In this document: positions 17,739 to 25,134 of the stretch, in pieces
How positions within the stretch are numbered: position 1 is the first letter of the stretch
How the letters are laid out: the number at the start of each line of letters is the position of its first letter
Origin: Acidobacteriota bacterium
Lineage (GTDB): Bacteria > Acidobacteriota > Vicinamibacteria > Vicinamibacterales > JAKQTR01
Assembly (NCBI GenBank): GCA_026393755.1
Contig: JAPKZO010000040.1
Location: 165,311-229,310 of the forward strand
Length of the DNA: 64,000 nucleotides
Direction of reading: 5' to 3'
Notes under the pieces: generated by a model
Database searches by the model: none
Told to the model about the DNA's origin: nothing
The model's input: the letters and a program-made list of their open reading frames with translations, nothing else
Made by a program: the position numbers and the translations under genes

Positions 17739-17800
17739 CCAGTTAGACGCAGGACCGCGGCCAGTGGTCTGGCGGCAGGGGTGTCCGTGTCTGTGGTTGA

Positions 17801-17806
17801 ATTATA
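17801..17806 (-). promoter_or_regulatory. Candidate -10 box for the ECF sigma operon
   Basis: The minus strand reads TATAAT in an otherwise GC-rich spacer, about 63 bases before the GTG at 17738. No recognisable TTGACA is present at the right distance, so this is a single-element call. Confidence 0.4.
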
Positions 17807-17837
17807 GGCCTCGGCGGTTCCTCCCGAGGAATATGGC

Positions 17838-17861
17838 GGTGACACTTGCGGTGAAACTTGC
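17838..17861 (+). repeat. Tandem 12-bp direct repeat upstream of the HTH-receiver gene
   Basis: GGTGACACTTGC (17838-17849) is followed directly by GGTGAAACTTGC (17850-17861), 11 of 12 bases identical. It lies 21 bp before the GTG start of the regulator gene. It could be an operator for that regulator or its paralogue. Confidence 0.6.
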
Positions 17862-17882
17862 ACCGGCTCCGTCCGTCAAACG

Positions 17883-18506
17883 GTGATAGAGTACGCGCCG
17901 ACGACGCCCATGGATGACGTTTTCCTCACCACCGAAGAAGTTCTCGAGTACCTTCAGGTCAACCTGAGGACGGTCTACCGTCTGATCAAGGCCGGAAAGA
18001 TCCCGGCTGTGCGAGTCGGGCGCCAGTGGAGGTTCCGGAAAACGGACATCGATCGCTGGCTCACCACTCAGGCCACGGCGTTTCCTGTCACTGATCCGTC
18101 GGCAGCGGGCGCCTCGGCCACGGAAGCCGGGCCTCTATCGACGCGACGCCGGCGCGTGCTGGTGGTGGACGACGAAGCCACGATCCGCGAGCTCTTGACC
18201 CGGACGCTGCTGCTGGCGGAATACGATGTCGAGGAAGCGCCAGATGGCCGCGCTGCGCTCGCCCTGATGCGGACCACCGCGTTCGATCTGCTCATCACGG
18301 ATCTCAAGATGCCCGGCGTGGACGGCCTGGCGCTGATTCGCGACGCGCACCGGCTCGCGCCGACGATGCCGGCCATCGTCATCACGGGGCATTCCACCGA
18401 GGCCAGCGCGATTGATGCCGCCAATGTCGGGGTGGCCGGCTATCCCACGAAGCCGTTCCGGATCGCCAGGGTCCTCGCCACCGTCGCCAAGGCGCTCGGC
18501 GAGTAG
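17883..18506 (+). CDS. Excisionase-type HTH protein fused to a response-regulator receiver domain
   Basis: The 207-residue protein begins (about 13-64) with a MerR/excisionase-type helix-turn-helix of the helix_turn_helix_17 kind: FLTTEEVLEYLQVNLRTVYRLI, then the RVGRQWRFRKTDIDRWL wing. After a 25-residue linker comes a receiver domain (about 90-205) with the acid pair Asp96/Asp97, the phosphoacceptor Asp140 in LLITDLKMPG, the switch Thr168 and the conserved Lys190. So DNA binding is likely controlled by phosphorelay. The order is reversed relative to usual response regulators, which carry the receiver first. No kinase gene is adjacent. The listed start is GTG; the ATG at 17910 is also possible. 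Its HTH is a close paralogue of the protein at 18797. Confidence 0.85.
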   Translation: MIEYAPTTPMDDVFLTTEEVLEYLQVNLRTVYRLIKAGKIPAVRVGRQWRFRKTDIDRWLTTQATAFPVTDPSAAGASATEAGPLSTRRRRVLVVDDEATIRELLTRTLLLAEYDVEEAPDGRAALALMRTTAFDLLITDLKMPGVDGLALIRDAHRLAPTMPAIVITGHSTEASAIDAANVGVAGYPTKPFRIARVLATVAKALGE

Positions 18507-18591
18507 GCTACCGGCCAGCCGAGCTCGCTTCCCAATTCTGCGCGACTCCTACCAGAACTGTCGCAGAGCGTCGCTCGAACCCTCGGCGGCG

Positions 18592-18633
18592 TGTCGCTAA
18601 ATCAGACAGTCCGGGTGTCAACTTTTCGAACAC
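18592..18633. promoter_or_regulatory. Two dyad sequences, candidate enhancer sites for a sigma-54 activator
   Basis: The first dyad is TGTC-N9-GACA (18592-18608). The second is GTGT-N11-ACAC (18615-18633) with TTCGAA near its centre. Both lie roughly 90-130 bp upstream of the predicted transcription start, the usual distance for NtrC-type activator binding. Which protein binds is unknown. Confidence 0.45.
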
Positions 18634-18693
18634 AGTGTCCCGATTTGCAGAAATCCTTCGACAAACAACCGATCGGTGTGCCGGCCCCAATGA

Positions 18694-18709
18694 TGGCATC
18701 GCACTTGCT
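18694..18709 (+). promoter_or_regulatory. Sigma-54 (-24/-12) promoter
   Basis: The sequence TGGCATCGCACTTGCT matches the consensus TGGCAC-N5-TTGCW with the exact GG-to-GC spacing and one substitution. The predicted start is near 18721, about 75 bp before the first gene. Transcription would need RpoN and an AAA+ activator; an NtrC-type activator with GAFTGA is encoded at 40457. Confidence 0.75.
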
Positions 18710-18796
18710 CTGTGTGGTGTCGTGAATGACCCACTAATACCCTTCATGACATGTAGACGACGTTCGTGTCAGCTGGGCGCGGGTCGCTAGAGAGCC

Positions 18797-19120
18797 ATGA
18801 ACATGTCGAACCTCAGTCGGCCTCATCCAACGGTTCAGACGTTTCTGAAGCCATCAGACGTGCTGGCCCGGCTTCGGGTGAACGCTCGAACGCTGTATCG
18901 GCTGATGAGCGAAGGGACGCTCCCGGCGGTCAGGATTGGCCGTCAGTGGCGGATTCGCCAAAGCGATCTTGACCTCTGGCTTCGCCGGCAGACGCATGAT
19001 GTCGGCGCCACCACCTCAACGGGACTAGCCACGCGCACGCAAGGCCAAGCTCCCGCAACCCATGTCACCGCGTGCCAGCCGCTCGATCACGAGGGCTCGA
19101 TCGAAGGAGACCGAAAATGA
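18797..19120 (+). CDS. Excisionase-family HTH DNA-binding protein
   Basis: This 107-residue protein has one helix_turn_helix_17/excisionase-type domain (about 16-66): FLKPSDVLARLRVNARTLYRLM followed by the RIGRQWRIRQSDLDLWL wing. The last 40 residues are polar and probably disordered. It is closely similar over the HTH to the receiver-fused protein at 17883. Its stop codon overlaps the ATG of the first secreted beta-protein gene (ATGA), so it is the leader gene of that operon and is translated with it. It lies downstream of the sigma-54 promoter, which suggests autoregulation or a fine-tuning repressor. Despite the family name there is no phage or integrase context. An ATG two codons later is an alternative start. 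Confidence 0.85.
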   Translation: MNMSNLSRPHPTVQTFLKPSDVLARLRVNARTLYRLMSEGTLPAVRIGRQWRIRQSDLDLWLRRQTHDVGATTSTGLATRTQGQAPATHVTACQPLDHEGSIEGDRK

Positions 19121-19617
19121 AGATGAAGTTGTTCGTCCTCGGCATCACGATTGGCGCGATCGGGCTGGTGCAGCCCCTTGGGGCCGTCGACACCACTCAC
19201 AACGTCGCGATTGCCGCGACGGTGACGGTCACGGCCAAGCTGAGCGTCAGCGCGGCCACGCTGACGTTCCCCAACTCCGATCCCGACACGGTGCCGAGTA
19301 TCGCGGCGACCGAAGGTGCGGTGAACATCACAGCAAGCGCGAAGACGAGTACGGGCTCAGCCGTGACGCTGACGCTGCTGGCTGATGGCGACCTCACCAA
19401 CGGCACGGACTCGATCGCGATTTCCAACATGACGTGGACCGCCGGCGGCGCCGATTTCGCGGCCGGCACCATGAGCAGGACTACAGCCCAGTCCGTGGCG
19501 TCGTGGACCAGTTCCGGAAGGCGCACCGGCACGCAGAGCTTCGCGCTGGCCAACAGCTGGTCGTACCCGACCGGCAGCTACTCGGCCACGGCCACCTACA
19601 CCCTCACTGCGCCGTAG
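19117..19617 (+). CDS. Small secreted beta-protein, subunit paralogue 1 (pilin-like)
   Basis: The start at 19117 follows AAGGAG by seven bases and overlaps the regulator stop. The 166-residue product has a signal peptide (about 1-23, ending LGAVD). An alternating hydrophobic strand follows (NVAIAATVTVTA), then the block shared by its paralogues: LTFPNSDPD, ITASAKTSTGSAVTLTLLA, DLTNGTDSIAISNMTWT, GTM..TTAQSVASW, GTQSFALANSWSYPTG and a final YTLTAP. No cysteines are present in the mature part, unlike most classical pilins. The length, N-terminal strand and last-strand pattern resemble chaperone-usher subunits (spore coat U or DUF4402 types), but I do not recognise a named family. It is first in the subunit series and followed by a hairpin, which suits the most abundant subunit. 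Confidence 0.85.
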   Translation: MKMKLFVLGITIGAIGLVQPLGAVDTTHNVAIAATVTVTAKLSVSAATLTFPNSDPDTVPSIAATEGAVNITASAKTSTGSAVTLTLLADGDLTNGTDSIAISNMTWTAGGADFAAGTMSRTTAQSVASWTSSGRRTGTQSFALANSWSYPTGSYSATATYTLTAP

Positions 19618-19652
19618 GACCTCGGATCGGGATATCCTACGCAGGACCACAT

Positions 19653-19680
19653 CCGGCGGACGGTCGCTCCCGTCCGCCGG
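19653..19680 (+). terminator. Perfect 10-bp hairpin after the first subunit gene
   Basis: CCGGCGGACG (19653-19662) and CGTCCGCCGG (19671-19680) are exact complements around an 8-base loop. There is no T-run. Between subunit genes 1 and 2 it could partially terminate or protect upstream mRNA, raising the amount of subunit 1. Confidence 0.6.
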
Positions 19681-19689
19681 CTGCAGACC

Positions 19690-20190
19690 ATGAACATCCG
19701 ATTGACGTCATTCGCAGCCGCTCTCCTGGCTGCCTCGCTCGCTCAACCGCTGACGGCGGCCACCTCGGCCGGCAACGTCAACGTGTCGGTCACCGTGTCG
19801 GCACGGGCGAAGCTGGAGCTGACCCGGTCCACGGTGACCTTCGCCAACGCCGATCCCGATGTCGCGCTCACGATTCCGGCCAGCGAGGGCACAATTTCGA
19901 TCACCGCGAAGGCCAAGACCGCGGCGGGCGCGGCGGTCACGCTGACGGTCATCGCGGCCAGCGACCTGACGAGCGGCGGCGATTCAATTGCGGTCACCAA
20001 TGTGACCTGGACGGTCAGCGGGGCGGGGTTCACCCCGGGCACGTTGAACAAGACGACGGCCCAGACGGTGGCGTCGTGGACAGGCTCCGGCAACCGGGCC
20101 GGGACCCAGTCGTACGCGCTGACCAACAGCTGGTCGTATCCGACCGGCACGTTCTCGACAACAGCCACATATACGTTGACGGCCCCGTAG
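19690..20190 (+). CDS. Small secreted beta-protein, subunit paralogue 2
   Basis: This 166-residue product is a clear paralogue of the preceding one: signal peptide to about residue 23 (LTAAT), N-terminal strand NVNVSVTVSARAKLEL, then FANADPD, ITAKAKTAAGAAVTLTVIA, DLTSGGDSIAVTNVTWT, TTAQTVASWTGSG, GTQSYALTNSWSYPTG, and YTLTAP at the end. Roughly half of aligned positions are identical to paralogue 1. No cysteine is present. It begins 72 bp after the first subunit stop, across the hairpin. It is expected to be exported and to rely on the chaperone encoded downstream. The biological structure formed is unknown. Confidence 0.85.
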   Translation: MNIRLTSFAAALLAASLAQPLTAATSAGNVNVSVTVSARAKLELTRSTVTFANADPDVALTIPASEGTISITAKAKTAAGAAVTLTVIAASDLTSGGDSIAVTNVTWTVSGAGFTPGTLNKTTAQTVASWTGSGNRAGTQSYALTNSWSYPTGTFSTTATYTLTAP

Positions 20191-20208
20191 TCGCCGCGGT
20201 ATCGCCCT

Positions 20209-20685
20209 ATGCACCGTTTCAAGATGCGTCGACTTATCGGGGCGTGCCTGGCGGCCGGCGTGGCGCTGGTGATGGCGCCCGGCGTCAATGCCCAGACACT
20301 GACGTTGGGTGTCGACCAGGGATCGATTTCATTCGCGGACGCTGATCCGGATGCGACCCCCAGCATCCAAGCCGCCGCTGTTACCGTCACCTACAGGGTG
20401 CAAGGCAACTCGGGGGGAAACTGGAGGATCACGATCATGTCATCGACCGATCTGACCAGCGGCATAGCGAGTATCCCGATCAGTCAAGTGACGTGGACGG
20501 CCACGCCGGCACCTCCCTTTCAAGCGGGCACGATGAGTACTGCGGTCGAGCAGACGATGGCTTCGGGTACCGGGAATGCCAACCCGACAAAGACCGGAAC
20601 CGTGATCTTCCGTCTCGCGAACTCGTGGAGCTACAACGTCGGCAACTATTCAGCCACGTTCACGTTCACCCTGTCGGCGCCATAA
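20209..20685 (+). CDS. Small secreted beta-protein, subunit paralogue 3 lacking the N-terminal strand
   Basis: This 158-residue product has a signal peptide ending VNAQ (about 29). The mature protein starts almost directly with TLTLGVDQGSISFADADPD, so it lacks the 10-15 residue alternating hydrophobic N-terminal strand of the others. The rest follows the family pattern: STDLTSGIASIPISQVTWT, AGTMSTAVEQTMASGTG, FRLANSWSYNVG and a final TFTLSAP. In donor-strand-exchange fibres a subunit without such an extension can accept but not donate a strand, which would place it at one end. That is inference. An ATG at 20224 is an alternative start; neither has a good ribosome-binding site. It follows subunit 2 by 18 bp. 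Confidence 0.8.
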   Translation: MHRFKMRRLIGACLAAGVALVMAPGVNAQTLTLGVDQGSISFADADPDATPSIQAAAVTVTYRVQGNSGGNWRITIMSSTDLTSGIASIPISQVTWTATPAPPFQAGTMSTAVEQTMASGTGNANPTKTGTVIFRLANSWSYNVGNYSATFTFTLSAP

Positions 20686-20698
20686 GGACGAGAACTGC

Positions 20699-21202
20699 AT
20701 GCGTCGGTTGTTCGGAGTCATCGTCGTGTTCGTGTTCGTGCTGGCGCCGGCGGCTCCCCTGCTGCGGGCCGCCAGTCGAACCGATACGATGTCGGTCAGC
20801 GCCACCGTCGCGGCGCGAGCCAAGCTGACGCTGTCCTACGCGTCGATGGCGTTTCCGGACGCGGATCCCGACGCTGTGCCGCTCGTGCCAGCCGGTGGTG
20901 GCGCCTTGATTATCACCGCGAAGGCCAGGACGACACCAGGCAGCACGGTGACGCTCGTGGTTCTCGCGAGCGACGATCTGCGTTCTGGCCTCGATACCAT
21001 CCCGGCGGGCAATCTGACGTGGACGGCGACGGGCGGCGGTTTTTCCGGCGGCACCATGAACAAGACGACGGCCCAGACCGTGGGATCGTGGGCCAACTCG
21101 GGGTTCTGGAGCGGCACGCAGAGCTACGCCCTGGTGAATTCGTGGAACTTCTCAACCGGGACGTACACGACAACGTTGAATTACACGCTGACCGCTCCCT
21201 GA
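20699..21202 (+). CDS. Small secreted beta-protein, subunit paralogue 4
   Basis: This 167-residue product has a strongly hydrophobic signal (about 3-24). Its mature N-terminal strand is TMSVSATVAARAKLTL. The family landmarks follow: FPDADPD, ITAKARTTPGSTVTLVVLA, DDLRSGLDTIPAGNLTWT, GTMNKTTAQTVGSW, GTQSYALVNSWNFSTG and a terminal NYTLTAP. It begins 13 bp after paralogue 3, with AAGGACGAG as a moderate ribosome-binding site. The stop codon shares a base with a possible ATG of the chaperone frame (TGATG at 21200-21204), though I favour a later chaperone start. It is the last of the four tandem subunit genes. Confidence 0.85.
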   Translation: MRRLFGVIVVFVFVLAPAAPLLRAASRTDTMSVSATVAARAKLTLSYASMAFPDADPDAVPLVPAGGGALIITAKARTTPGSTVTLVVLASDDLRSGLDTIPAGNLTWTATGGGFSGGTMNKTTAQTVGSWANSGFWSGTQSYALVNSWNFSTGTYTTTLNYTLTAP

Positions 21203-21252
21203 TGCGGCAGACGTCCAGCCGGGAGATCATGCATGACACGAAGGGCCATTTG

Positions 21253-22128
21253 ATGAACAGGGCACATGTGCAGATGGACCTCCTGAAGGGACTCAGGCAG
21301 GCCCGTCGCCGGGCCGTTCATGCAGCCGCAGCGATGCTGTTGCTGATCGCGCCGCCGGCCGCGTTCGCGCAGGAGTCGCTCTCGATTGAAGTCACTCCCC
21401 TGCGCGTCGAGCTCAAGATGGGTGTCGGCGCCACGCATACCCAGGTGGTCACGCTGCGCAACGACGCGAAGAAGGCCGCAAGGATCAGGGCGCGCGTTGA
21501 CGACTGGTATCTCTCGAGAGACGGGACGCCGCAGTTCAAGCCGGCCGATCCGTCCGACCCGTTTTCGGCGGCCTCGTGGGTTCGCGTCAACCCGCCTGAG
21601 CAGCTTGCGGCGGCCGGCGCGACGGCCCTCGTTCGCTTCAGCACGACCGTCCCCGCCGGCACGAAAGAGGGCGGCTACCGGTGCGCGGTGATGTTCGAGT
21701 TCGCTCCGCCGGACGCCGATCCGGTAGCCCGCTCCCGAGACGTGATGTTCCGGGGCCGCGTGGCGACGCTGCTCTACGTAACGGTTGGCACCCCGGTGCC
21801 GAGCGTCGACCTGACCGACTTGCAGATTCGCACGCCCAAAGATGGCGCGCCGGCGGTCGTCGCGACGCTCACCAACACGAGCCGCACGCACGTGCGAACC
21901 AAGGGCACGCTGGCGTTCTACGATGCGGCCGGCAGGCTCGTCCGCCAGGTGGCGATCCCGAATGTCCCGGTGCTGCCCGCGAGCGAACGCGAGGTGAGCA
22001 TCCCGAGTTCGGGAGAGGGCCAGACGCCGCTGCCTCCCGGCAAGTACCGCGTCGAGGTGAAGATTGACGTGGGTCAACCGGCGCTGATCGTCGGTGAGAC
22101 CACGATGGAGATCGCCGCGAAGCTATGA
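21253..22128 (+). CDS. PapD-like periplasmic chaperone for the secreted subunits
   Basis: I chose the ATG at 21253, which follows AAGGG by seven bases; ATGs at 21202 and 21229 are in frame. The 291-residue protein has a signal peptide ending AFAQE (about 40). The first Ig-like domain begins SLSIEVTPLRVELKMGVGATHTQ with VVTLRNDAKKAARIRARVDDWYLS, the pattern of fimbrial chaperone N-domains in which the first strands bind subunits. An FSTTVPAGTKEGGYRCAVMFE strand follows. A second beta-sandwich (about 185-290) contains PSVDLTDLQIRTP and ends with a KYRVEVKIDVG strand. It sits between the four subunit genes and the outer-membrane protein gene and overlaps the latter by 4 bp. A role as subunit chaperone is strongly suggested by context. 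Confidence 0.78.
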   Translation: MNRAHVQMDLLKGLRQARRRAVHAAAAMLLLIAPPAAFAQESLSIEVTPLRVELKMGVGATHTQVVTLRNDAKKAARIRARVDDWYLSRDGTPQFKPADPSDPFSAASWVRVNPPEQLAAAGATALVRFSTTVPAGTKEGGYRCAVMFEFAPPDADPVARSRDVMFRGRVATLLYVTVGTPVPSVDLTDLQIRTPKDGAPAVVATLTNTSRTHVRTKGTLAFYDAAGRLVRQVAIPNVPVLPASEREVSIPSSGEGQTPLPPGKYRVEVKIDVGQPALIVGETTMEIAAKL

Positions 22129-24371
22129 GGCCGGCCGTGTGGATCGGCGCCCTGCTTGTTGCGGCGACGGCGTTGCCGGTTCGCGCGCAGCAACCATCGG
22201 TTCAGATTGCGGCAGCCGTCCAGGCGACTACCGGCGACGAGCTGCGCCTCGGCGGCCAGCACCGGCTCGAGCCTGATCTCGGCATCCGGCTGTTCGATCC
22301 TGGCTTTCGTTTTGGCAATCTGTACGCCGATCTGAATGTGACGCGACGAGACGACCGCGTCGTCATCGGACGAGGGATGGTGCGTTTCGAGGGCTGGCGC
22401 GCCGCCGGCCTGACCTGGTCGGTTGACGGCGGCGACACGTGGAGCGCCCCCGCCGTCCAGGATTTCGGGTTCTCAAATCTCTTCGCCCCCCCGGTCACAG
22501 TGCAGGGCCTGTCGGTTCGGGGATCCAGCGCTCGCACCACCGTGCTGTTCACCGCGGGACGCGTCACCGCACAGCGGAACATCTTCGGCACCGACGTGGA
22601 AGCCATCGGGCAGCAGCTGTATCAGGCGTCAGCGTCCCACCGGGCCAGCGAACGCCTGGATGTGTACGCGCACGCTGTGCACGTCCGAAGCGGCCCGATG
22701 CGACTGTACACGGCATTCACGGATCGGAGCACCGATCTGGGCGGCGGCGTCCGGTACCGGCCGAACGCGTCGCTTCAGCTGGTCGCCGATGGGGGCATCA
22801 CGGCGTTCCGGCGACGCGGCGTGACACTGACCGAGTACGCGCCGACGGCATTGGCGGGCGCCATCTGGGCGCTTCCGCGCGGGTGGCTTCAGATCAATGC
22901 TCAGCGCTACTCGCTTGGCCACTACGCGGTCTCGAGCTTCCCATACAACGATCGGTCGGGAGTGTTTGTCGCGGGCGAGGCCGATGTCTCCATGTCGGCG
23001 AAGCTGTTTGGCGGCGCCGAATACGCGAGAAGCAATCTCAACCCGGACGCATCGTCAGGGGCGGCGGTCAGCGTGCCCTCGGGCACGTTCTCGCGCGCGT
23101 ACGGCGGCGTCCGGTTCAGTCTTGCCGGATCGTCGATGCTCACGGTTCGAATTGAAGGCGGGGGCCGCGAGATTCGGCCGTCACGATTCAGCGCAGGATT
23201 CGAAAGCGACACGGGCGTCATCACAACCGAATGGCACGGTCGCTTCCAGGCCGCCAGCCTGTTTGCGCGCTACGAACGCCGATCCAATGTCGATCCGAAC
23301 GACTCCGGCGTCAGCTCTACACAACACGAAGCCTCCGGCCAGCTGTACGTCAATCTTCGCAGCAGCAGGCAGCTGTTCGTGCTCGGCTCATGGTCGCGCC
23401 GGGCGGACGGATCCGGCGACGGCGAGACGCTCTGGCACGTCGGCGGAGGGGGTCAACTGCCGGTCGGCCCACTCTATCTGCGCCTGGAGGGCACGGTCGG
23501 GCGAACACACGACTGGAGTCTCCAGACCGTGTCGAACCGCCAGTCCCTGGCAGTCGGCCTCGGCGGGCCGGTGGCGGACCAGACGTATCTGTCGATTGAC
23601 TGTTATGTCGACCACTCGCCGTACGCCTTGGGCAACGGCGTCAACCCGTGGATGACACGGACGATGATCCGCCTGACGCGGTCGCTTCCGTTCGGGGGCG
23701 CGCGCTCGTCCCAGTCGGCGGGACGCTTGTCGCACGGCGGTCCCCAGGGCGTCATCAGCGGGATCGTGTTCGCCGACTGGAACGGCAACAACACCATGGA
23801 CGCCGATGAACCTCCGGTCAGCGGCGTGACGGTCTCGCTCGGCGCGATGGCGGCGATCGAGACGGGCCGTGACGGACGATTCGCGTTCGCCGGCGTGCCG
23901 GTTGGCGAACAGTCCGTCTCGCTCGACATGGCGAGCGTGCCGGCCGACTATGACGCCCCAGCCGACGAGCGGCAGACCGTGGTCGTCGCGCGCAACCGGG
24001 ACGTCACGGTTCGCTTCGCGCTGTTCCCGCTCGGCGCGGTCGACGGTGTGGTCTTCCAGGATGTCGACAATGACGGTACGTTGTCGGGTGCGGACACCCC
24101 GATCGAACGGGCGGTGCTCGTGCTCGATGACGGGGCTCGCACCGAGCTGGTGCGGGACGGGCGATTCCGGTTCGAGAGCGTGCGGATGGGGTCGCACACG
24201 ATTAGCCTGCTGGTCGCATCGCTGCCCGATGGGGCCCAGTTGGCGGGCGCCCCGGCGGTCACCGTCGAATTGAGCAGGGACCACGTGCCGGAACGGCTGG
24301 TGTTTCTCGTGAAACTCGACAAGCGGCCTGAGGTGAGAAAAGTGTTCCCGCCAAAGAAGAAAGGGATCTAG
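22125..24371 (+). CDS. Outer-membrane beta-barrel with two C-terminal SdrD-like domains, candidate translocation pore
   Basis: This 748-residue protein starts in an ATGA overlap with the chaperone. It has a signal peptide (about 1-22, ending VRAQQ). A long region (about 30-535) of alternating amphipathic strands follows, rich in RxxxGxxY patterns typical of outer-membrane barrels. Two similar beta-sandwich domains then occur (about 541-635 and 637-735), each opening with a calcium-loop-like motif (GIVFADWNGNNTMDADEPP and GVVFQDVDNDGTLSGAD), as in SdrD/Cna-B type repeats. The tail is basic. Overall size resembles fimbrial ushers, which also carry C-terminal beta-sandwiches, but I see no classical usher N-domain or plug. 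It is the likely export or anchoring component of the locus. Confidence 0.75.
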   Translation: MRPAVWIGALLVAATALPVRAQQPSVQIAAAVQATTGDELRLGGQHRLEPDLGIRLFDPGFRFGNLYADLNVTRRDDRVVIGRGMVRFEGWRAAGLTWSVDGGDTWSAPAVQDFGFSNLFAPPVTVQGLSVRGSSARTTVLFTAGRVTAQRNIFGTDVEAIGQQLYQASASHRASERLDVYAHAVHVRSGPMRLYTAFTDRSTDLGGGVRYRPNASLQLVADGGITAFRRRGVTLTEYAPTALAGAIWALPRGWLQINAQRYSLGHYAVSSFPYNDRSGVFVAGEADVSMSAKLFGGAEYARSNLNPDASSGAAVSVPSGTFSRAYGGVRFSLAGSSMLTVRIEGGGREIRPSRFSAGFESDTGVITTEWHGRFQAASLFARYERRSNVDPNDSGVSSTQHEASGQLYVNLRSSRQLFVLGSWSRRADGSGDGETLWHVGGGGQLPVGPLYLRLEGTVGRTHDWSLQTVSNRQSLAVGLGGPVADQTYLSIDCYVDHSPYALGNGVNPWMTRTMIRLTRSLPFGGARSSQSAGRLSHGGPQGVISGIVFADWNGNNTMDADEPPVSGVTVSLGAMAAIETGRDGRFAFAGVPVGEQSVSLDMASVPADYDAPADERQTVVVARNRDVTVRFALFPLGAVDGVVFQDVDNDGTLSGADTPIERAVLVLDDGARTELVRDGRFRFESVRMGSHTISLLVASLPDGAQLAGAPAVTVELSRDHVPERLVFLVKLDKRPEVRKVFPPKKKGI

Positions 24372-24877
24372 GGCAGACTGATCACGAAACGCAGCGGCAC
24401 GGCCATGCCGGTGGCCGCCGCCGAACCGCGAAGCGTGAAGATCAGTTGACCGGTGCGGACGCCACTTCCCACCCAGCGGCCGGCAACCTCGGGTACGTCA
24501 GGCCGCAGCACTCCGTCGCGCGCGCCGAATCCAACCCCCTCGAACTCGATCACCGACTCGCCGGTCGCAGGCCCGGGCAGAGCCGTCAGATCCGCCTGCG
24601 CTTCAACGGTCAGCACGACTTCGCCATCGCTCCGCGTTCGCGCGGCGGCGCGGTAGTCAATCGTCCCGATCACGACCGCGTCGGCGCCCGAACCCGTCTG
24701 CGGCCCGATGCGCAGCACCGAACTGGACACTCGAAGCGAAGTCGAGGCCGACACGTCGCTCTTGAACCGGACGAGCGTCGTCGCGCCCTCGGACGCGTGG
24801 ATCGGGCACGTCAGCGCCCCGCCCGCCAGCGCCGCCGCTGTCACCACCGTACGGAGAAGAGCAGAACAGGCACTCAT
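24368..24877 (-). CDS. Small secreted beta-protein, divergent subunit paralogue 5
   Basis: This 169-residue protein is read towards the operon; its stop overlaps the barrel gene stop by 4 bp. It has a signal peptide (about 1-28) with a start preceded by GGAG five bases upstream. The mature part keeps the subunit layout: an N-terminal strand region, VLTVEAQADLTALPG matching the VTLTVIAASDLTSG block, then IEFEGVGFGARDGVL, GRWVGSGVRTGQLIFTLRGS, and a terminal strand ending VISLP. It lacks the TWT and NSWSY motifs, so it is a distant member. Separate transcription suggests an anchor, cap or adaptor role, or independent control. Relationship to paralogues 1-4 is inferred from pattern, not alignment. 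Confidence 0.7.
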   Translation of the reverse strand: MSACSALLRTVVTAAALAGGALTCPIHASEGATTLVRFKSDVSASTSLRVSSSVLRIGPQTGSGADAVVIGTIDYRAAARTRSDGEVVLTVEAQADLTALPGPATGESVIEFEGVGFGARDGVLRPDVPEVAGRWVGSGVRTGQLIFTLRGSAAATGMAVPLRFVISLP

Positions 24878-25134
24878 CGTTCTCCATGATGTTACGGCCG
24901 GGCGTGCTGGCCGGCAATGCCATTGGCGACACGGGCGCGGATGACTTTAGATGACACAGTGTGCCCCCCGTGCAGTCCATCTCGTTTGATAGGGCCCTTT
25001 GGCGGAGGGAGAAACAAGAAAAAGAAGCAGTCAGTACCGACTACCACTCTCTGCGGTCAGCACGTCGAGGCAAAGCGCTCCGGTATAGTAGAGTGTTATC
25101 CTGATCGAGCGGCGACAGTTGGCGCCTCCAATTC
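24878..25134. other. 257-bp divergent intergenic region
   Basis: No gene is seen. A TATAGT at 25084-25089 is a possible -10 for the ABC-F gene. The stretch 25029-25050 carries a degenerate copy of the AGTCAGTA/CGACTACC heptad-type repeat found after the ABC-F gene. Confidence 0.35.

Follow-up and report, generated by a model that had tools for sequence, protein, structure and literature searches.

A 64,000-nucleotide stretch of an Acidobacteriota genome (contig JAPKZO010000040.1, positions 165,311 to 229,310, hereafter called the window) carries a compact gene block at positions 18797-24877. Its first gene, for a stand-alone HTH_17 regulator, is followed by genes for four secreted subunits related to one another, a chaperone-like protein of two domains, a 748-residue outer-membrane barrel and a fifth subunit in convergent orientation (Table 1). 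This gene content is present as described in the original prediction, which was made from the sequence alone, and the start of the barrel gene and the stop of the chaperone gene share a 4-base ATGA overlap. The regulator, called excisionase-type at that stage, does reside inside the operon and is more precisely a stand-alone HTH_17 protein, with counterparts in the same place in locus L046 (5295-5504) and in the alignment of genomes G249, G199 and G207. In Pfam and NCBIfam scans of single proteins, neither the subunits nor the chaperone had a match above cut-off, and standard annotation leaves these gene products as hypothetical proteins. We propose, with a probability of about 0.62, that the locus encodes a donor-strand system of chaperone-usher-like type, which assembles a thin fibre or coat at the cell surface by way of an unconventional pore.

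Table 1. Features of the gene block and its immediate flank, in window coordinates.
Feature	Positions	Strand	Basis
HTH_17 and response-regulator protein; flank gene that adjoins the block and is kept where the block is absent (G143)	17883-18506	+	PF12728 and PF00072
Present/absent block	18509-25130		blastn of flanks: 82-87% identity to G143 up to 18508 and again from 25131
Stand-alone HTH_17 regulator; first operon gene, overlapping the start of subunit 1	18797-19120	+	PF12728, 2.5e-15
Subunit 1, with donor-strand-like N-terminal extension	19117-19617	+	Family alignment; extension test
Subunit 2, with extension; the modelled subunit	19690-20190	+	AlphaFold2 model; matches to chaperone-usher pilins
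Subunit 3, type B, without N-terminal extension; candidate tip or initiator	20209-20685	+	Extension test
Subunit 4, with extension	20699-21202	+	Family alignment; extension test
PapD/WxLIP-like two-domain periplasmic chaperone	21253-22128	+	Family-profile matches
Usher-like outer-membrane barrel with two C-terminal SdrD/CarboxypepD_reg-like domains	22125-24371	+	PF17210, 5e-9; AlphaFold2; Foldseek
Subunit 5, same family, convergent	24368-24877	-	Profile match 1.1e-7; orthologues 1e-12 to 1e-16

Subunits 1-4 are true paralogues, with 36-55% identity to subunit 2, which is far beyond chance. The series of ordered motifs attributed to all four by the original prediction is exact solely in subunits 1 and 2; it is altered in subunit 3 (DLTSGIASI, NSWSYNVG and TLSAP, with TTAQ..SW absent) and in subunit 4 (DLRSGLDTI and NSWNFSTG). 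Likewise, the reported lack of cysteines holds for the mature proteins, and the sole cysteine of subunit 3 resides within its signal peptide. The divergent fifth gene facing back proves to be a real family member, recovered by a profile of the other subunits that does not recover composition-shuffled copies. As had been suspected, the family fits no named pilin family: SCPU, DUF4402 and the other pilin families in Pfam gave no match among 20 subunits at E-values up to 1, and the WxL domain (PF13731) matched no member of the subunit alignment. Comparison of the subunit profile with the sequences in PDB produced weak antibody-like matches only, which we read as generic sandwich noise.

An AlphaFold2 model of subunit 2 (18 alignment rows; pLDDT 76.9, pTM 0.64) forms a beta sandwich that extends from residue 40 to a C-terminal strand at residues 155-164, preceded by an N-terminal extension that is predicted to be disordered (residues 19-37, pLDDT below 50). 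When this model is compared with known structures by VIA-align, the leading rows are mostly pilins of chaperone-usher pathways (CUPs), including FimG, FimA, PapA, CsuA/B and CfaE, matched over residues 37-166 with Z scores of 6-7.2. This predicted resemblance is suggestive only. The top match, with a Z score of 8.0, is to the cryo-electron microscopy entry 9ikj/9ikk (‘TLP-1a/b’).

A stronger test, conducted at the sequence level, concerns the region that precedes the sandwich. All 12 of the type-A subunits carry an extension of about 13 residues with alternating hydrophobic positions, located between the signal peptide and the first core strand. The summed alternation score is 35 versus a shuffle mean of 15.8, and none of 5000 shuffles reaches 35, although this result is not a probability because the subunit sequences are related. 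The extension is absent from 6 of 6 type-B subunits, which start directly at the core and occur once per locus in all six loci tested. Subunit 3 is the type-B representative of the window, and its counterpart in each of five related loci likewise lacks the extension. A pilus subunit that has no donor strand can occupy the tip position only. By analogy, subunit 3 is a candidate for the tip or first subunit of a fibre.

The profile of the chaperone family matches the chaperone of an archaic CUP locus that has SCPU subunits together with a PF00577 usher (2.0e-11), as well as CsuC at 0.0034 (alignment A11). Its best solved relative in PDB is EfmWxLIP1, a Gram-positive WxL-interacting protein (WxLIP), which is matched over both domains at 2.8e-8, or at 2.2e-6 with a second alignment. 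Among 13 family members, Pfam recognizes PF06030 in six and PapD_N (PF00345) in five; the window chaperone itself has no Pfam match above cut-off, including to the WxLIP families PF06030 and PF11797. In archaic chaperones, an invariant arginine (Arg89 of CsuC) binds the C-terminal carboxylate of the subunit, and strand G1 of CsuC (Val110, Phe112, Met114, Tyr116) complements the subunit fold (PMC4654587). When aligned by way of an archaic chaperone, the SYR89L segment of CsuC falls on GGY-R143 of the window protein, and this column reads YR in 7 of 7 order-level members. We read VMFRGRV in the same alignment as the probable equivalent of strand G1. An equivalence with Arg8/Lys112 of PapD was also weighed, but Arg89, the archaic anchor, is the better fit.

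The leading alternative, to which we assign a distinctly smaller chance, is that the genes produce a non-fibrous surface complex resembling those of WxL clusters, in which the subunits remain attached to the chaperone-like protein, itself a structural partner, and are no more than anchored or displayed by the barrel. In addition to the ranking of EfmWxLIP1 noted above, this explanation draws on the hairpin strand of that protein, for which a role in completing the WxL sandwich is predicted (PMC10599100), and on the presence of wall-linked domains, namely SPOR on several barrels and AMIN on one chaperone. The AMIN fusion occurs in G060 (L023 7754-9211), and the SPOR domain, which binds peptidoglycan, resides at the barrel C-terminus in three members of the window clade (G199, G210 and G207; loci L048, L049 and L050) and is absent from the window barrel. 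However, the presence of extensions on type-A subunits and their absence from type-B subunits fit chain growth, the window chaperone has no C-terminal membrane helix, and archaic CUP chaperones are likewise within reach of the family profile. Furthermore, PF13731 is absent from all 149 genomes of the phylum that were searched, including that of the window, whereas a Lactococcus control was positive.

Gram-positive WxL/WxLIP clusters (DUF916-DUF3324, EfmWxLIP1) resemble the locus in having small proteins and a two-domain immunoglobulin (Ig)-like partner with a detectable sequence relation, a strand of which is predicted to complete the sandwich of the small protein. They differ in that the window has no WxL domain by profile and no membrane helix on the partner, and encodes an outer-membrane barrel where WxL clusters rely on peptidoglycan display. 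The WxLIP study (PMC10599100) names neither PapD nor Gram-negative bacteria, and therefore a link between WxLIPs and CUP chaperones seems to have gone unremarked there.

The barrel protein was modelled with AlphaFold2 from 6 alignment rows (pLDDT 74.5, pTM 0.54), giving about 26 predicted strands at residues 25-522 and two beta domains after residue 540 (approximately 540-732). The claim that the protein ends in two SdrD-like domains is borne out by an SdrD_B (PF17210) match at residues 546-610, above the Pfam cut-off, and by the second C-terminal beta domain seen in the model. Foldseek comparison with PDB places FimD/PapC ushers in the 12 best positions (8e-17 to 1e-9), and the next family follows at 3e-8. 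In profile comparisons, the plugless barrels (those of the window clade, of G178/G186/G111 and of G121) match a plug-bearing outer-membrane protein of G221 at 2.4e-6, and the profile of this latter protein matches true ushers at 1.4e-9 over the plug and early barrel. Same-genome TonB receptors and reversed profiles, used as controls, give 0.03 or worse; these E-values are rough, since the usher set includes two entries (L064, L066) that are short or off-frame.

Outer-membrane proteins of related loci retain various usher-like parts. Plug-like stretches are found in G221, G067 and the G001/G017/G031 group, and N-domains resembling Cu_amine_oxidN1 are weak in G221 and G067 and clear in G157. Barrels of the window clade have neither part, and short barrels with no obvious plug also occur in other classes. 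The SdrD/CarboxypepD_reg tail is kept in all 14 loci scanned. These plug-bearing, usher-like proteins and the WxLIP relative of the chaperone family are observations that go beyond the original prediction. In G226, the Cu_amine_oxidN1 domain is found as a separate secreted protein encoded between the chaperone and the barrel (L051 2280-2837), and is a candidate for a detached usher N-domain.

Several results weigh against a chaperone-usher-like system. The Z scores of the subunit 2 model to FimG (7.2), PapA (6.6), FimA (6.5) and CsuA/B (6.5) are below 8, a range that can reflect merely the common sandwich arrangement, and Foldseek found nothing below 0.001 for this model (best E-value 0.017). 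The window-clade chaperone profile used alone found no relative in PDB, and beyond the window's order the R143 column holds histidine or tryptophan in the majority of members. As the original prediction had anticipated for the N-domain, the barrel of the model starts from residue 25 without any inserted domain, such that both the usher N-domain and plug are absent, and the usher family PF00577 matches neither this protein nor anything else in the genome. TM-scores between the six-row barrel model and ushers are low (0.25-0.35), and VIA ranks the porin MtrB first (Z 18.7 over 430 residues, root-mean-square deviation 4.3), with PapC/FimD at about 13. In addition, the link between the plugless barrels and G221 weakens to an E-value of 0.0018 under another column rule, and therefore common descent of the barrel and ushers is likely, as judged from profiles, rather than shown.

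The MtrB match and the lack of a PF00577 match are also the basis of a second, less probable alternative, in which a large, unrelated porin has been recruited to the locus as its barrel and the subunits are secreted by another route. This possibility must contend with the Foldseek ranking, wherein the 12 ushers come first over both the barrel and the C-terminal domains, with the plug-bearing proteins found in relatives of the same locus type, with the overlap between the barrel and chaperone genes, and with the tail kept in every locus scanned. MtrB, despite being the best geometric match, sits in an electron conduit and lacks a chaperone, subunits and C-terminal SdrD-like domains. FimD/PapC ushers share with the modelled window protein a barrel followed by two beta domains, but differ from it in plug, N-domain and Pfam assignment.

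Conservation of the gene order, which the original prediction had proposed as a check, was found among members of the window's order, which is probably Vicinamibacterales as named relatives suggest, as well as in further classes of the phylum and, in more divergent form, in Deinococcus. Subunits, chaperone and barrel co-occur in six genomes of the order, and in most of these the response regulator next to the block, the convergent subunit and an ABC-F ATPase gene are present as well. The same gene set with 2-4 subunits occurs in other classes, and the order-level subunit profile recovers subunits of G178 (1e-20 to 1e-26) and one of G060 (5e-18). In Deinococcus, the divergent version is located on two plasmids. 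However, the block is missing from the same-genus genome G143 between flanks that are 82-87% identical, such that the response-regulator and ABC-F genes are approximately 430 base pairs apart, versus 6.6 kb in the window. The block is therefore conserved as a unit, although its distribution is patchy. Across the phylum, a broad chaperone profile gives a match in 56 of 386 genomes, and PF00577 ushers are found in 8 of 149. The figure of 56 includes more than this system, because the broad profile also recovers chaperones of genuine CUP loci.

A decayed pilus locus whose usher has lost its plug and N-domain is very improbable: these parts are absent and the sensor kinase gene beside the block is gone from the window genome, but the seven order-level loci encode long, intact barrels (38-54% identity to that of the window, with many invariant columns) and short barrels that lack an obvious plug occur in other classes too, and therefore the locus is conserved rather than decaying.

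On the preferred reading of a chaperone-usher-like donor-strand system, a mechanism can be proposed whose central events, namely contact of chaperone and subunit, secretion and the formation of a fibre, are all inferred. Sec signal peptides evident in the sequences would deliver the subunits to the periplasm, where each is predicted to be an incomplete Ig-like sandwich ending in the C-terminal strand ...YTLTAP. By homology, the first domain of the chaperone would lend a strand (V.F.G.V, preceding RVATLLY) and use R143 to hold the subunit. The subunit would then pass through the outer-membrane barrel, and the N-terminal extension of the next subunit would replace the chaperone strand, with type-B subunit 3 serving as the first or tip subunit. 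The barrel would function as an usher stripped down to a pore of about 26 strands, with neither plug nor N-domain, and the docking of the chaperone and the gating would probably fall to its two C-terminal beta domains.

The expectation of a chaperone-assembled fibre-type system is supported by the conserved gene order and, less firmly, by the predicted subunit fold. The locus is CUP-like on most testable points, namely chaperone family, anchor arginine, subunit extensions and gene order, and the fold comparisons of subunit and barrel gave mixed results. Archaic CUPs (Csu/SCPU) share with it small secreted subunits that have N-terminal extensions, a PapD-like chaperone with the Arg89 equivalent and, as modelled for the window, a large outer-membrane pore followed by a pair of beta domains at the C-terminus. 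In contrast, the window pore has no PF00577 signature, plug or N-domain, is built from about 26 predicted strands, and bears C-terminal domains of the SdrD/CarboxypepD_reg type; its subunits are outside SCPU and the other Pfam pilin families; and a single-domain subunit that lacks an extension is present where archaic CUPs use a two-domain tip adhesin. We have not filed the locus as a CUP member because plug, N-domain and PF00577 were tested and are absent.

The system is probably a variant of the chaperone-usher type, with a pore that lacks two standard control parts and a chaperone that also resembles a Gram-positive surface protein. The usher N-domain and plug are thought to be essential for docking and gating. 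If the proposal is correct, their absence from a conserved system shows what an usher can do without, and gating could be studied in a minimal natural pore. Moreover, Gram-positive WxL-interacting proteins and Gram-negative pilus chaperones would be joined through a family that matches both, and Acidobacteriota, an abundant but poorly known soil phylum, would gain a candidate surface appendage. A bolder and rather doubtful extension is that the locus represents a separate class of diderm systems that build surface polymers by strand donation, in which the C-terminal domains gate a plugless pore and the chaperone family unites WxL/WxLIP complexes and chaperone-usher pili as one ancient strand-donating superfamily.

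A genuine archaic pilus locus with SCPU subunits, a PapD_N chaperone and a PF00577 usher (L055 3993-9074) was encountered in an acidobacterial genome of the same order, which also holds an SdrD-tailed variant locus (L052). Upstream of the block, a sensor histidine kinase gene that is present in G143 (L094 7447-9561) and G250 is missing at window positions 17754-17877, and the best match to this kinase within the window's own genome is only 32% identical; the adjoining response regulator therefore looks orphaned. Approximately 80 base pairs beyond the response-regulator gene (about 18588-18666) are conserved in G143 at its empty site and contain GTGTC/GACAC repeats, and this stretch is possibly an operator or promoter older than the gain or loss of the block.

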